This document shows positions 21,668 through 50,792 of a stretch of DNA of 64,000 nucleotides, one piece after another. The notes under the pieces were generated by a model. That model was not told the origin of the DNA. It did no database searches and was given only the letters and a program-made list of their open reading frames with translations. Location of the stretch: assembly GCF_001314225.1 (NCBI RefSeq), contig NZ_CP012697.1:1426001-1490000 (forward strand), in the 5' to 3' direction. This stretch comes from Microbacterium sp. No. 7 (GTDB taxonomy: Bacteria; Actinomycetota; Actinomycetes; Actinomycetales; Microbacteriaceae). Numbering within the stretch: the first letter of the stretch is position 1; every line of letters starts with the position of its first letter. The position numbers were made by a program, and so were the translations under genes.

Positions 21668-23667
<2,000 letters not shown>

Positions 23668-46637: not shown

Positions 46638-46838
46638 GAATCCTCCAGGTGTGTGGGGCAGACGACGATCGCTTCCATTCTAGGGGGCGCTTCTGCCTGC
46701 CTGAAGCAACGGATGCCGTGCTCCGTCCGACGGCTCCGTCCGTCCGGGTGTGCAGACTGCACTTCGCGACGGGGAAACTGGGACGGTAACGGCGATCCGG
46801 CGACGGGTGAGAATGTCAACCTCAGCTGGGCCCAGGGC

Positions 46839-46852
46839 GGCAATCTAAACGG
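46839..46852 (+). repeat. Left inverted repeat around the trpS-istBA block
   Basis: GGCAATCTAAACGG, unusually AT-rich for this genome; its inverted match (13/14) is at 50674-50687, about 3.8 kb away. Confidence 0.6.
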
Positions 46853-46892
46853 GACCCACCCTGTGGTTTCTGGTCTTGGTTCCGGGCCCCGG

Positions 46893-46898
46893 TAGTAT
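46893..46898 (+). promoter_or_regulatory. -10-like element for the trpS leader
   Basis: TAGTAT lies 7 nt before the ATG of the leader peptide, so transcription probably starts at or very near the ATG and the leader peptide may be translated without a 5' leader. A -35 element could not be assigned with confidence. Confidence 0.4.
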
Positions 46899-46905
46899 CT
46901 CGTTC

Positions 46906-46944
46906 ATGAACTTCAACCGTTCCGCTTGGTGGTGGCTGCGATAG
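46906..46944 (+). CDS. trpS leader peptide with three Trp codons
   Basis: ATG at 46906 opens a 12-codon frame, MNFNRSAWWWLR, ending in TAG at 46942-46944. Three adjacent TGG codons (46927-46935) are typical of a sensor of charged tRNA-Trp. There is no ribosome site, and the promoter-like TAGTAT just upstream suggests leaderless translation. It lies inside the attenuator described at 46910-47027. Confidence 0.85.
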   Translation: MNFNRSAWWWLR

Positions 46945-47027
46945 CAGCCGGTTGAAGTATGTTCACGGGCTGCACGGCAGCTCGTGGAACGGCCCGAGTA
47001 CTCCGTGTAGCTCCCAATCATCGGGAG
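46910..47027 (+). promoter_or_regulatory. Ribosome-mediated attenuator of trpS
   Basis: Four segments can pair in alternatives: segment 1 GGCTGC (46934-46939) with segment 2 GCAGCC (46944-46949), extended by ACTTCAACCG/CGGTTGAAGT (46910-46919 with 46949-46958); segment 2 with segment 3 GGCTGC (46968-46973); segment 3 with segment 4 in a 9-bp hairpin (46965-46973 with 46977-46985). Ribosomes stalled on the Trp codons would cover segment 1 and favour 2:3; with enough Trp they reach the stop and favour the 3:4 terminator. A further hairpin CTCCC/GGGAG (47011-47015 and 47023-47027) hides the trpS ribosome site. Confidence 0.75.
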
Positions 47028-47033
47028 ACACAA

Positions 47034-48074
47034 ATGGAGTCCTTCATCGCAACCGCGCAACGCTCGGCAGAGGTCGCGGTCCTCGTGGCCGAGCACCCCG
47101 AGCACTTTCGAGTCCTCACGGGTGAGCGGCCGACTGGGCCGCTGCATCTGGGCCACTACTTTGGCACCATCAGGGAACGGGTGCGTCTCCAGCAGGCTGG
47201 CGTCGAGATGTTCCTCGTGCTCGCGGACTATCAGGTCATCACCGACCGAGACACGATGGCTCACGTTCGCGAGAACGTCTATAGCGCTGTGCTCGACTAT
47301 CTCGCCGCGGGCATCGACCCGGAACGGACGACCATTTTCACCCACTCGTCGGTGCCGGCGCTGAATCAGTTGATGCTGCCGTTCCTGAGCTTGGTCACCG
47401 AGGCGGAACTGCATCGTAATCCGACCGTCAAAGCGGAACTCGCGGCGTCCGGGCGCGCGTTGAGCGGGTTGCTCTTGACCTATCCGGTGCACCAGGCGGC
47501 CGACATTCTGTTCTGCAAAGGCAATCTCGTGCCCGTCGGCAAGGACAACCTCCCGCATGTGGAGATGACTCGCGTGATCGCTCGACGGTTCAACGAGCGC
47601 TATGGGGATGTCTTCCCGGTTCCGGATGCGTTGATCACGTCGACGCCGGAGGTTCCGGGCTTGGACGGTCGGAAGATGTCGAAGAGCTACGGGAACGCGA
47701 TCGCGTTATCTATGACACCGGACGAGACAGTTGCGGTGATTCGTCAGACTCGGACCGATCAGGACCGGCGGATCAGTTTCGATCCCGAGGACAGGCCTGG
47801 TGTTTCGGCGCTGTTGTCGACGGCCGCGCTGTGCCGCGGTGTCGAGCCAGCCGAGTTAGCCGACGAGATCGGTGATGGCGGCAGCAGCGCCCTGAAAGCC
47901 ATGACGGCGACAGCCGTGAACGACTTCTTGGAACCGTTGCGCGTGAGGCGGCAAGCCTTCGCCAAAGACGAGGATCTCGTGCGGGCGATTCTTCGCCACG
48001 GCAATGAGGCTGCGAACACTTCGGCGGAGTCAACACTGGCCCAGGTGCGCGAAGCAATGGGGACGATCTACTAG
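47034..48074 (+). CDS. trpS: Tryptophanyl-tRNA synthetase, attenuator-controlled second type
   Basis: 346 residues, complete class I synthetase. The HIGH-type motif HLGH is at residues 38-41 and KMSKS at 214-218. VPVGKDNLPHVEMTRVIARRFN replaces the more usual GEDQ..H.E form near the active site. The end TLAQVREAMGTIY looks native. ATG at 47034 has GGGAG upstream inside a hairpin. Base composition is less GC-rich than neighbours. Inducible trpS copies of this type in Streptomyces give resistance to the tryptophan analogue indolmycin; that role here is inference. It ends 8 nt from the convergent istB. Confidence 0.93.
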   Translation: MESFIATAQRSAEVAVLVAEHPEHFRVLTGERPTGPLHLGHYFGTIRERVRLQQAGVEMFLVLADYQVITDRDTMAHVRENVYSAVLDYLAAGIDPERTTIFTHSSVPALNQLMLPFLSLVTEAELHRNPTVKAELAASGRALSGLLLTYPVHQAADILFCKGNLVPVGKDNLPHVEMTRVIARRFNERYGDVFPVPDALITSTPEVPGLDGRKMSKSYGNAIALSMTPDETVAVIRQTRTDQDRRISFDPEDRPGVSALLSTAALCRGVEPAELADEIGDGGSSALKAMTATAVNDFLEPLRVRRQAFAKDEDLVRAILRHGNEAANTSAESTLAQVREAMGTIY

Positions 48075-48082
48075 GACCTCGG

Positions 48083-48895
48083 TCAGACCTGGTCAGTGAG
48101 TCGGCGGGTGTGGGCGAGGCGATAGGAGTCGGTGCCGGTTTCGATGATGCTGCCACCGAACGTGAGTCGGTCGACGATCGCAGCGCAGAGCCTCGGGTCG
48201 GTGAAGGTCCTCGTCCATCCGGAGAACGATTCGTTGGAGGCTATCGCGACGGAGTTCTTCTCTTCGCGTTCGGTGAGGACCTGGAACAGGAGCTCGGCTC
48301 CGCGGCGGTCGAGTTCCATGTAGCCGAGTTCATCGATGCAGAGCAAGTCGACGCGGCCGTAGCGAGCGATGGTGCGGGCGAGCTGCTTCTCGTCGGCGGC
48401 TTCGACGAGTTCGTTGACGAGTTTCGTCGCGAGCGTGTATTTGACCCGATAGCCCTTCTCTGCAGCCGCGGTTCCCAGACCGATCAGTAGATGCGATTTC
48501 CCGGTACCGGAGTCGCCGATGAGGCAGAGCGGTTCGCCTTTGCGGATCCAGTCACCGGTAGCGAGTTGGTGGATCGTGGCCGGGTTGATGTTCGGGTTCG
48601 CGTCGAAATCGAAGTCACCGAGCCACTTGCTCCGCGGGAAGCCAGCCGCAGACACGCGCCGAATCGAGGAGCGCCGATCGCGATCATCGCACTCCGCGAG
48701 CAGTAGCTCTGCCAGGAACCCTTGGTAGGACAGCTGCTCTCGGTTCGCGGTCACCAGGGCCTCGTCAACGACGGCGCGGACAGTCGGGAGCCGGAGACGC
48801 CGGCAGGCCTGATCGACAGCCGCGATCGCTGCTTCTTCGGTGAGCCCGCGTCTCCGGCGCAGCGTCGTCGTGACGGTGGTGGGTTTCGTGGTCAT
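48083..48895 (-). CDS. istB: IS21-type ATPase IstB
   Basis: 270 residues, AAA+ ATPase of IS21 elements: Walker A GDSGTGKSH, Walker B LLCIDELGYMELDRRGAELLFQVL, sensor NSVAIASNESFSGW, and the end AAIVDRLTFGGSIIETGTDSYRLAH. It has an N-terminal extension typical of this subgroup and differs clearly from the IstB of the first element. ATG overlaps the istA stop (ATGA). Its stop lies 8 nt from the stop of trpS. Confidence 0.93.
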   Translation of the reverse strand: MTTKPTTVTTTLRRRRGLTEEAAIAAVDQACRRLRLPTVRAVVDEALVTANREQLSYQGFLAELLLAECDDRDRRSSIRRVSAAGFPRSKWLGDFDFDANPNINPATIHQLATGDWIRKGEPLCLIGDSGTGKSHLLIGLGTAAAEKGYRVKYTLATKLVNELVEAADEKQLARTIARYGRVDLLCIDELGYMELDRRGAELLFQVLTEREEKNSVAIASNESFSGWTRTFTDPRLCAAIVDRLTFGGSIIETGTDSYRLAHTRRLTDQV

Positions 48896-50571
48896 GTTCC
48901 CGTGGTTCCTTCCCGATCAATCGCTTCGTCCGTGAGCGTCGGGCGTGCCCGACGTTCCAAGAGTTCGTCGTAGCCGGCGACACTCGGCAGTGGTCTCGTG
49001 TCGGCCGGGAGACCTGCGATCACCGCGGCCGGATCAGCGAGACGGCGTTGGGTGAGACTGACAACTCGTTGCTCGCGGCCAGACGCGAGTTCACGGAGAT
49101 GACCATGCAGGCCAGGCCCACCCGTCGAAGTTTGTCTGCGGGCTTCGACAGCGACGACATCGGCGGTGACTGCCCCGACTTGGAGTGCTGCGTGGATGCC
49201 GGCGATCACTTCCTCTGCGGGCATGCTCCGGTGCAGAAGCAGAACATCAATGAGGGCTCGCGTGCCGACGGCATCACCATCGGTCTTGCGGGCGGCCGCC
49301 CAGAACGCATCGTGGGCAGCCGTAAACACTCCGGCCTCCCGCGCCCTCGCTAAGGCGGTGGCTCCCGGGAGCGCTCCGGGCTTCTGACGCAACACCTCGA
49401 GGTAATGGTCGAGGACGACTGATTGTCCGCCGCGCGCGACAACTCGCTCATGGCGGGCAACTTCCTGGTGCCCGTCGAAAACGACGACCACGGACGCGCG
49501 TAATGAGACGCGGACGTTCCGGCCGATCAGATGGGCGGGGACGGAGTACTTCGCCATCCGAACCGTGATCAGACTCGACCTGTCGACCCGCGGATGCAGC
49601 GTCAGGCCTGGATCGAATCGCTCATACGGCAGCGGCGACAGCAGTGCCTGTTCGACGGCGAAGTCCTGGCCGACTGTGCGAATCCGCGACGCGATCCGCC
49701 GCCTGTCATCCGCCGCGTCCCAGGCGCGGATTCTCGCGTTGAGTTCTGCGAGGGAATCGACAACCGGCATGGGTGTCAAATGTGTTCGCCGGAACCGCCC
49801 GACCTCACCCTCAACGCCGCCCTTCTCATGTGCGCCCGTGATACCGGGTTGGCAGTAGAACGAATCGAACCCGTAGTGGGAGCGGAACAGCACCCACCGC
49901 TCGTTCTCGATCCGGCCGCGCCCGTTGCCATAGAGCACCGCCTGGACTGCCGATGTCAGATTGTCGTAACGGATATGCCGGGTCGGGATGCCGCCAATCT
50001 CTTCGAACGCATCAATGTGGCCCTCGAGGAATGCTTCCTGCGACTGAGTCGAATAAACCCGGTGGATCGCCTTCCCCGAGTGAGAGAGCCGGAACACGAA
50101 CATGTGGCACTTCGTCTTCACCCCAGCTAGCACCACCCACACCTCGCCGAAATCGACCTCAGCCTCCGCACCTGGCTGGTGGTCTTGAGGGATGAAGACC
50201 TCCACCCGCCGGCCCGCGACCGCGTCGATCTCGGGCCGGCGAAAGCGGACGTAGTTACGAACAGTCGAATACGACAATTCAGTCGCTCCGTGCTCCTCAA
50301 TAAGACGATCCAGTACCCGGGTCGCGGTGTGGCGCTGCTTCCTTGGTGCCGTCAGATCCTCCCGCAGCATCGCGTCGATCGCGGGCTTGAACCGGTCAAG
50401 CCTCGGCGCCGACCTCACCCGCGTCTTCTTCGGCGGCGGTTCCGGCGAAGCCAACGCCTGCCGCACCGTCGCTCGCCCAACGTGATGACGGCGCGCAAGC
50501 TCTCTGATCGAGAGCTCCTCCACCCGCGCATCACGCCGAATCGCCGCGAACACATCCACCCGAGATCCCAT
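48892..50571 (-). CDS. istA: IS21-type transposase IstA
   Basis: 559 residues. HTH near the N-terminus (LSIRELARRHHVGRATVRQALA), DDE core with EVDFGEVWVVLAGVKTKCHMFVF, RHIRYDNLTSAVQAVL and GITGAHEKGGVEGEVGRFRR, and the C-terminal domain ending in DEAIDREGTTGT. Intact and longer than the IstA of the first element, so it belongs to another IS21 branch. A strong hairpin lies just upstream of the ATG. Confidence 0.93.
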   Translation of the reverse strand: MGSRVDVFAAIRRDARVEELSIRELARRHHVGRATVRQALASPEPPPKKTRVRSAPRLDRFKPAIDAMLREDLTAPRKQRHTATRVLDRLIEEHGATELSYSTVRNYVRFRRPEIDAVAGRRVEVFIPQDHQPGAEAEVDFGEVWVVLAGVKTKCHMFVFRLSHSGKAIHRVYSTQSQEAFLEGHIDAFEEIGGIPTRHIRYDNLTSAVQAVLYGNGRGRIENERWVLFRSHYGFDSFYCQPGITGAHEKGGVEGEVGRFRRTHLTPMPVVDSLAELNARIRAWDAADDRRRIASRIRTVGQDFAVEQALLSPLPYERFDPGLTLHPRVDRSSLITVRMAKYSVPAHLIGRNVRVSLRASVVVVFDGHQEVARHERVVARGGQSVVLDHYLEVLRQKPGALPGATALARAREAGVFTAAHDAFWAAARKTDGDAVGTRALIDVLLLHRSMPAEEVIAGIHAALQVGAVTADVVAVEARRQTSTGGPGLHGHLRELASGREQRVVSLTQRRLADPAAVIAGLPADTRPLPSVAGYDELLERRARPTLTDEAIDREGTTGT

Positions 50572-50576
50572 CCCAA

Positions 50577-50624
50577 ACCTCCACCATCAGCATCCGGAAC
50601 AACAGTTCCGTCAACGGTGGAGGT
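50577..50624 (-). promoter_or_regulatory. Nested hairpins just upstream of istA
   Basis: ACCTCCACC (50577-50585) pairs with GGTGGAGGT (50616-50624), and inside it CGGAAC/GTTCCG (50595-50600 and 50605-50610) forms a second perfect stem with an AACA loop. It begins 6 nt before the istA start codon, so it may block read-in translation of the transposase or act as an outside-transcript terminator. Confidence 0.5.
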
Positions 50625-50673
50625 GGACTCGGCTCAGGCTGCCGTGGACACCCCGTCAAGCAGCAAGTGGTCT

Positions 50674-50687
50674 CCGCTTAGATTGCC
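50674..50687 (-). repeat. Right inverted repeat around the trpS-istBA block
   Basis: The minus strand reads GGCAATCTAAGCGG, 13 of 14 matches to the left copy at 46839-46852. It lies about 100 nt upstream of istA, a normal distance for an IS21 end. Confidence 0.6.
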
Positions 50688-50792
50688 CTGGTGGGTCCGA
50701 CTTACGCTGCCATAGTCAACGGGGGACTCCGCCGTACTCTGGCCACGTCCACACGGACGACGTCGACGATGACAGGCCCGAAGGGAAGAGCG

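Follow-up and report, generated by a model that had tools for sequence, protein, structure and literature searches.

A 64,000-nucleotide stretch of the Microbacterium sp. No. 7 genome (contig NZ_CP012697.1, positions 1,426,001 to 1,490,000), hereafter called the window, contains a tryptophanyl-tRNA synthetase (TrpRS) gene, trpS, enclosed with the transposition genes istB and istA in a 3,911-bp element of the IS21 insertion sequence (IS) family. The host genome (G000) is 4.83 Mb long and consists of three contigs. The window copy of the element is intergenic, between a lipoprotein-like open reading frame (ORF) and an AMP-binding-enzyme-like ORF. Its genes and limits, in window coordinates, are listed below.

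46803..46807: target duplication ACGGG, left copy, identical to the 5 bp at 50719-50723
46808..50718: whole trpS-carrying IS21-family transposon, 3,911 bp, delimited by eight copies with 0 mismatches and differing flanks
46808..46820, + strand: left tip inverted repeat TGAGAATGTCAAC, placed by comparing the flanks of the eight copies
46839..46852, + strand: left subterminal repeat GGCAATCTAAACGG, bases 32-45 from the tip
47034..48074, + strand: trpS, the cargo gene, encoding an auxiliary-type TrpRS of 346 amino acids, assigned by TIGR00233 and residue comparison
48083..48895, - strand: istB, helper ATPase of 270 amino acids, above the cut-off of NF038214
48892..50571, - strand: istA, IS21-family transposase of 559 amino acids, above the cut-off of NF033546
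50674..50687, - strand: right subterminal repeat GGCAATCTAAGCGG, bases 32-45 from the tip
50706..50718, - strand: right tip inverted repeat TGACTATGGCAGC, placed by the same flank comparison
50719..50723: target duplication ACGGG, right copy, repeating the left 5 bp

The trpS product scored 240.7 bits against TIGR00233 (cut-off 176.75), IstB 251.9 bits against NF038214 (cut-off 200) and IstA 246.5 bits against the IS21 transposase model NF033546 (cut-off 160). IstA contains EVDFGE at 138, RYDN at 201 and HEKGGVEGE at 248, which we take to be DDE landmarks. The stop codons of trpS (+) and istB (-) were measured to be 8 nt apart, the same distance given in a first-pass annotation of the window, and istB overlaps istA by 4 nt. 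We put at roughly 85% the probability that this is a complete, recently active IS21-family transposon in which trpS, as the passenger, occupies the space from the left end to istB, runs convergently to istBA and encodes an auxiliary TrpRS with its own tryptophan (Trp)-codon leader.

The first-pass annotation had described the trpS-istB-istA block as enclosed by 14-bp inverted repeats. These repeats are present, and GGCAATCTAAACGG and GGCAATCTAAGCGG are 13/14 alike and are the sole two exact matches to the 14-base pattern in the window; allowing up to 3 mismatches gave 6 window matches against 4.95 expected, which is no excess. Between the element ends the repeat was found once (three registers at 12/14 or better), compared to a mean of 0.015 in 200 base shuffles. 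As element ends, the 14-bp repeats were ruled out by the flank comparison of the eight copies, which placed the ends at 46808 and 50718. The repeats are instead subterminal: the true tips are 31 bp further out, and the repeats begin at base 32 from each tip and are probably transposase-binding sites. The tips begin with TG, finish with CA and are accompanied by inner repeats, as expected of the IS21 family.

Searching the host genome with the unit returned eight full copies and a partial one, together with a 75% relative of the transposase part. The full copies, five on the main contig and three on the two smaller contigs, occupy eight different sites and show 0 mismatches over 3,911 bp, and their flanks remain different as far as TGAGAATGTCAAC at the left boundary and GCTGCCATAGTCA at the right. 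All five main-contig copies are bordered by a 5-6 bp target duplication (ACGGG, ACCGGC, TCTGG, CCGACG and CCTGT), within the 4-8 bp range predicted by the first-pass annotation. That trpS is merely the fixed neighbour of an IS was ruled out by the common limits of the eight copies. The left flank of one copy (L003) matches the right flank of another (L007) by eye (AGCGTG), which suggests, without proving, recombination between copies.

The search for empty sites covered two duplication-bearing copies, the window copy and L002. The latter, flanked by ACCGGC, splits a lipocalin-like reading frame by our reading, and when its flanks were joined, 4 of 97 other genomes showed the frame continuing through the junction without a break. 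The joined sequence is 495 bases long, and the matches cover bases 15-436 at 78% identity in G181, where the stretch was read directly, 3-349 at 76% in G328, 6-421 at 73% in G169 and 1-468 at 67% in G756. The earlier proposal that trpS, istB and istA form one mobile unit is thereby borne out by eight identical copies, duplications at five of them, one empty site and, as detailed below, a sister element in another genus (G627). We regard the element limits and its mobility as close to certain. Among further observations in the host genome, the partial copy (L017, G000:C3:26690-27658) is a ninth, truncated one with the left tip and leader intact, in which trpS ends after about residue 240, and it lies directly downstream of an ORF resembling, by our reading, an IS256-type transposase. 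Copy L008 (G000:C1:3504811-3508721) seems from its flanks to break a cytochrome P450-like gene near the 3' end. Four TrwC relaxase domains were found on the main contig (C1) and none is listed on the two small contigs.

The region between the left subterminal repeat and trpS contains the following features.

46906..46944, + strand: leader peptide ORF MNFNRSAWWWLR with its stop codon, including three Trp codons (WWW), read from the sequence
46934..46949, + strand: attenuator-like hairpin 1:2, GGCTGC/GCAGCC, which overlaps the leader ORF at its end; all cells (100%) paired across the 21 sequences
46944..46973, + strand: candidate antiterminator 2:3, GCAGCC (46944-46949) with GGCTGC (46968-46973); 100% of cells paired in 21 sequences
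46964..46986, + strand: candidate terminator-like hairpin 3:4, CACGGGCTGC/GCAGCTCGTG; 98.6% of cells paired, with changes on both sides of one pair
47011..47027, + strand: hairpin CTCCC/GGGAG over the probable trpS ribosome-binding site; 93.3% paired, two pairs changed on both sides

The predicted stall codons together with the putative pairings 1:2, 2:3 and 3:4 have the layout of a classical attenuator, and a Trp-codon leader with alternative hairpins is the arrangement expected of an auxiliary TrpRS1 gene. Of 79 trpS loci, 31 have a leader ORF with at least two adjacent Trp codons, a few of these 31 being long frames that may have arisen by chance. Among the 19 loci from the element and its nearest kin, 18 have such a leader; loci devoid of it are mostly those of distant relatives (Bifidobacterium, Coriobacteria, Treponema and others). 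In 21 aligned leaders with five helices and 33 pairs, 94.8% of cells were paired compared to 26.7-46.2% when the 3' partner was slid by 1-3 columns. An Rfam scan gave six weak matches, none reaching the gathering score. The earlier suggestion of a leader-controlled trpS inside the element agrees with this conservation of the WWW leader and its helices; the control itself is a prediction.

We infer that IstAB moves the element and that the Trp leader regulates trpS. The predicted targets of IstA and IstB are the tips together with the subterminal repeats (from base 32); acting there, the two proteins would move the whole 3.9-kb unit and duplicate 5-6 bp of the target. The cargo would supply a second, auxiliary TrpRS with its own Trp-codon leader. 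When charged tRNA-Trp became scarce, for example when indolmycin or another TrpRS inhibitor blocked the housekeeping enzyme, the shortage would stall the ribosome in the leader, the RNA would refold and trpS would be expressed.

One further full trpS is present in the genome (C1:1157360-1158334), a housekeeping gene whose product is 33% identical to the element enzyme and scores 328.3 bits against TIGR00233. The element enzyme groups with auxiliary TrpRS. Residue numbers were counted from an alignment to solved TrpRS structures, among them 7cki and 1i6k; 7cki is the TrpRS of Geobacillus stearothermophilus (according to excerpts of PMC12087186). Aligned in this way to the Geobacillus enzyme, the housekeeping TrpRS keeps H43, D132 and Q147, which are described as indolmycin determinants in a section of PMC4899734 that also reports resistance conferred by the H43 to N change. 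In the element enzyme, compared with the housekeeping one, Q replaces H43 (ADYQVIT vs VDLHALT) and N replaces Q147 (VGKDN vs VGDDQ), while D132 is kept. It is plausible from these substitutions and from its family that the element TrpRS is resistant to TrpRS inhibitors such as indolmycin, and we lean somewhat towards drug resistance as the reason why trpS has been kept.

Alternatively, the cargo could serve Trp starvation, stress or gene dosage instead of drug resistance, and be switched on whenever charged tRNA-Trp is low. The leader would sense any shortage of charged tRNA-Trp, and other roles are known for a second TrpRS, such as that of TrpRS II with nitric oxide synthase (as stated in part of PMC9437257). 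This explanation is rather unlikely given that two indolmycin-contact positions are altered relative to the housekeeping enzyme and that reviews (PMC6804068 and PMC9437257) report the second Streptomyces TrpRS as indolmycin-resistant.

Several observations weigh against a regulated, drug-resistant cargo of a recently active transposon. Three of the eight copies, all on the two small contigs, have no target duplication of their own, and for the window copy no long junction-spanning match was among the matches listed from the 97 other genomes. Covariation in the leader helices, with five pairs changed on both sides (equalled in 9 of 500 shuffles), is modest because slid structures reach up to eight such pairs, and it is uninformative for hairpins 1:2 and 2:3 because both hardly vary. 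No U-run follows hairpin 3:4 in the sequence, as a terminator of the attenuator type would have, and termination is therefore not assured. The hairpin over the ribosome-binding site suggests control of translation as a second possibility. Lastly, a solved TrpRS II (2a4m) likewise has Q at position 43 and the auxiliary-type Kitasatospora enzyme (L161) has ADYQVIT yet keeps Q147, so that neither residue proves resistance.

Relatives were sought in overlapping samples of genus (366), family (398) and order (396) genomes; two candidate stretches were scored per genome, and the counts of trpS with istBA are therefore lower bounds. The two occur together in at least 2 of the 366 genus genomes, G000 (counted in) and G018, and a relict at 95% in G262 retains a frameshifted trpS and 48 bp of istB. 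The family sample added at least one further genome, G627, from another genus. Its sister element is 87% and 91% identical in two pieces and has both tips, a CCACCC duplication and the same leader; its trpS is open from a TTG and most of istBA is deleted. No new case was among the matches listed from the order sample, and the combination is likely rare. The G018 unit is decayed, with istB split between frames and a recognisable right tip; a left tip was looked for there and not found. A TrwC/MobF relaxase-like frame (L079, 15764-16768, by eye) stands beside this decayed unit, hinting at a former plasmid or integrative element.

Between G000 and G627, trpS shows a nonsynonymous divergence (dN) of 0.047 and a synonymous divergence (dS) of 0.651, and the resulting dN/dS of 0.07 indicates that the protein was kept working. 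Part of this divergence may predate capture, because a solo trpS in G600 groups with the element trpS. These values bear on the possibility that trpS is a neutral hitchhiker, trapped by chance in one IS21 copy and spread by an active transposase with no benefit. The eight identical copies do resemble one recent burst, and the combination looks rare (at least 2 of 366 genus genomes, the G262 relict and at least one more in the family sample), but neutrality is unlikely in view of the low dN/dS across two genera (part of that divergence may be older than capture), the retention of the leader and the likelihood that trpS was captured a second time, again in this slot and orientation. That trpS is functional cargo is, in our judgement, quite probable.

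Outside such elements, none of the best 80 of at least 566 named trpS relatives had istA or istB within up to 6 kb per side. The notion that solo trpS genes are hidden elements was not supported: in 19 loci without full istBA, scanned for tip and repeat patterns with up to 2 substitutions, one loose match was found in L126, inside its trpS, plus one in L127. The solo trpS of G600 (L064), with no tips or istBA within 1.5 kb, is either a donor-like locus or stranded cargo. When plasmids were searched with the element, 259 records matched, in none of which a single place covered 80%. Two Rhodococcus plasmids encode a 72.7% identical TrpRS that istBA does not adjoin in either; the closest is an IS1415, roughly 4 kb off in one of them. 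Overall, TrpRS relatives are encoded on 104 plasmid records, of which 25 are from Staphylococcus; 99 of the 104 are below 60% identity. An exact 20-base right-end pattern had 0 matches in viral contigs.

The first-pass annotation had named two findings that would speak against the proposed unit. An istBA pair without trpS that ends after istB was found only in relatives 73-74% identical in IstA (L101 and L251), and these cargo-less forms fit a gain of cargo and, as we read them, do not argue against mobility. A trpS at this locus without istBA was absent from the matches listed for the 97 genomes, a weak test because the intergenic site is poorly conserved.

The origin of the cargo was examined with a trpS tree of 37 rows and an IstA tree of 48 rows, both midpoint-rooted for drawing only. 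The trpS genes of G000, G262 and G627 and the solo gene of G600, joined by a fork with support 81/78, fall within an 18-row clade (100/99) whose other rows are solo genes; 17 of the 18 rows come from the host family, and internal support is mixed. The G018 trpS falls in a separate clade (8 rows, 91/85), its nearest fork being weak (82/33). In the IstA tree G000 and G627 group together (100/99; 34% of columns are filled in G627), surrounded by elements that carry other cargo, and the G018 IstA lies outside a 37-row clade (97/96) in which G000 is joined to elements carrying different cargo or none. Trees of this shape indicate that IS21 elements probably captured trpS twice, which is the simpler reading because both the trpS and the IstA of G018 come from other lineages. 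The resemblance between the element and solo trpS loci starts close to the leader and runs to roughly the trpS stop (query 64-98 to 1265-1277), and because the likeness spans this whole interval, leader and trpS probably arrived as one cassette.

A single ancient capture, in which the ancestor of the IS21 branch had trpS and most descendants lost or replaced it, would make G000 and G018 non-independent and would account for the same slot and orientation of trpS in both; it is improbable because the G018 IstA is outside the 97/96 clade containing G000, the G018 trpS sits in a different clade and many losses would be required. An artefact of misassembly or amplification of one locus is scarcely credible and largely refuted: eight perfectly identical copies are difficult for short reads and three copies are without duplications, but five sit at unrelated sites between matching short duplications, the target of one is uninterrupted in other genomes, and another genome contains a sister element that has tips and a duplication.

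The slot occupied by trpS was surveyed in 42 loci, namely 40 istBA relatives chosen from the best matches, with up to 5 kb per side, plus G018 and G627. Ends were accepted when both tips fitted TGNNNNTGNCA, the right tip lay 125-170 bp beyond the istA start and an exact duplication of at least 5 bp was present. This rule gave ends in 20 of the 42 loci. A control made after the survey, using duplications at 99 wrong offset pairs, gave a mean of 0.08 loci (maximum 2) compared to 20 of 41 testable loci. The 22 loci without ends include L123, skipped for lack of an istA start, and may mix contig edges, decay and nesting. With 22 of 42 loci giving no ends and the loci chosen non-randomly, the survey sets a minimum for cargo.

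Besides G627, ends were obtained in 19 loci, of which L101 has 75 bp from istB to tip and no cargo and 18 have 478 to 2,613 bp. Seven carry MerA (mercury reductase) and a MerR-type regulator. The mer family models were run on L122, and the other six were assigned by near-identical ORFs; the L122 MerA scored 517.2 bits against TIGR02053 (cut-off 454.45) and its regulator passes Pfam MerR models and no NCBIfam metal-specific cut-off. L122 (G000:C1:2538945-2541297, duplication GACGTC) places such a mercury-resistance-like IS21 element in the host genome too. Other cargo includes GNAT (L087), a methyltransferase (L093), DUF1254/DUF1214 (L114), GAF-ANTAR (L117), GntR with a membrane protein (L113, L115), MarR and others (L121), a DF-family-like protein below the cut-off (L112, 64.5 vs 70) and unassigned ORFs (L118, L119, L125). 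The pairs L091/L108 and L095/L111 are possibly not independent because each has a common duplication.

Among order-level loci with 1.5-kb flanks, 3 of 10 also gave ends, as did 5 of the 8 named plasmid loci. Two of these five, L250 and L254, coincide with L087 and L113; the plasmid locus L247 was incomplete. On a Paenarthrobacter plasmid the order is merA, regulator, istB, istA, with an IS5 transposase also inside the ends, and a Frondihabitans plasmid has GNAT, istB, istA. The M. proteolyticum plasmid NZ_CP121273.1 has a hypothetical protein and GntR as cargo, and pBD2 bears a nearly cargo-less form (84 bp). Collectively, the survey makes it moderately likely that this actinobacterial IS21 branch is a cassette transposon in which the transposition genes and right end are constant and the slot between istB and the left end is exchangeable for one or a few genes, some for stress or resistance; a self-regulated, probably drug-resistant trpS would have entered at least twice, making a resistant essential enzyme mobile. 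The slot pattern suggests overlooked cargo in actinobacterial IS21 elements, which may be found by reading from the istB stop to a TG....TG.CA tip and then seeking a 5-6 bp duplication in the flanks.

Three side observations concern other istBA genes and IstB. In G369 (L086, 7639-8328, - strand of the locus) the genes next to istBA look by eye like those of an ArsR-type regulator and a phosphinothricin acetyltransferase; a left element end was looked for at this locus and not found. The window contains a second, distant IS21-like istA/istB pair at 21686-23604 (27% and 37% identity). IstB matches the PADLOC defence model DrmD (E 5.3e-29), and PADLOC gave trpS no family; we take the IstB match as a sign of shared ATPase homology, and it is likely to produce false defence calls around IS21 elements.

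IS21-family elements have an overlapping istA/istB pair, TG...CA tips, inner repeats and a short target duplication. The element shares all of these with IS21 and with IS1415, an annotated example from Actinobacteria, and, unlike them, has an unrelated gene inside its ends; the IS1415 copy on the Rhodococcus plasmid pYLC1 is distant, with one istB match at 32% identity and no IstA match at E 1e-20. IS derivatives with passenger genes are termed transporter IS (tIS) in the relevant part of PMC9330008. Like a tIS, the element has an unrelated passenger between IS ends, with trpS inside the ends in 8/8 full copies and in G627; unlike the tIS in that part of PMC9330008, where no IS21 tIS and no synthetase passenger are mentioned, it combines both. 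No IS21 element with synthetase cargo was found in the open-licence PubMed Central (PMC) literature, in agreement with the first-pass annotation, which knew of none. The element is best described as a transporter IS of the IS21 family; its cargo is new, and it belongs to a branch in which cargo appears to be exchangeable.

An attenuation study reportedly exists on the TrpRS1 gene of Streptomyces. A candidate classical attenuator upstream of S. avermitilis trpS2 is mentioned in an excerpt of PMC1262725, and indolmycin resistance is reported in S. griseus and for TrpRS1 in parts of PMC6804068 and PMC9437257. Like Streptomyces TrpRS1, the element trpS encodes a second TrpRS with an attenuator-like leader; transposon cargo is not described for TrpRS1 in those portions of the sources, whereas here trpS lies inside a transposon and its terminator-like hairpin has no U-run.

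A synthetase gene usually found at fixed places has here become a mobile trait. If our reading is correct, a transposon moving a sensing-and-response unit, made up of a leader and a possibly resistant TrpRS, would offer a route for TrpRS-inhibitor resistance out of its native setting. Mupirocin-insensitive isoleucyl-tRNA synthetase (IleRS) genes are named mupA/ileS2. TrpRS inhibitors are under study as drug leads (per sections of PMC12135181), and spare resistant synthetases are reported in antibiotic producers, the mobile case found in the literature being a plasmid-borne, mupirocin-insensitive IleRS (in part of PMC9437257). Like the plasmid IleRS, the element encodes a mobile spare aminoacyl-tRNA synthetase, with drug insensitivity reported for IleRS and predicted here; unlike it, the element concerns another amino acid and another drug, and its synthetase is carried by an IS21 transposon rather than encoded by a plasmid.

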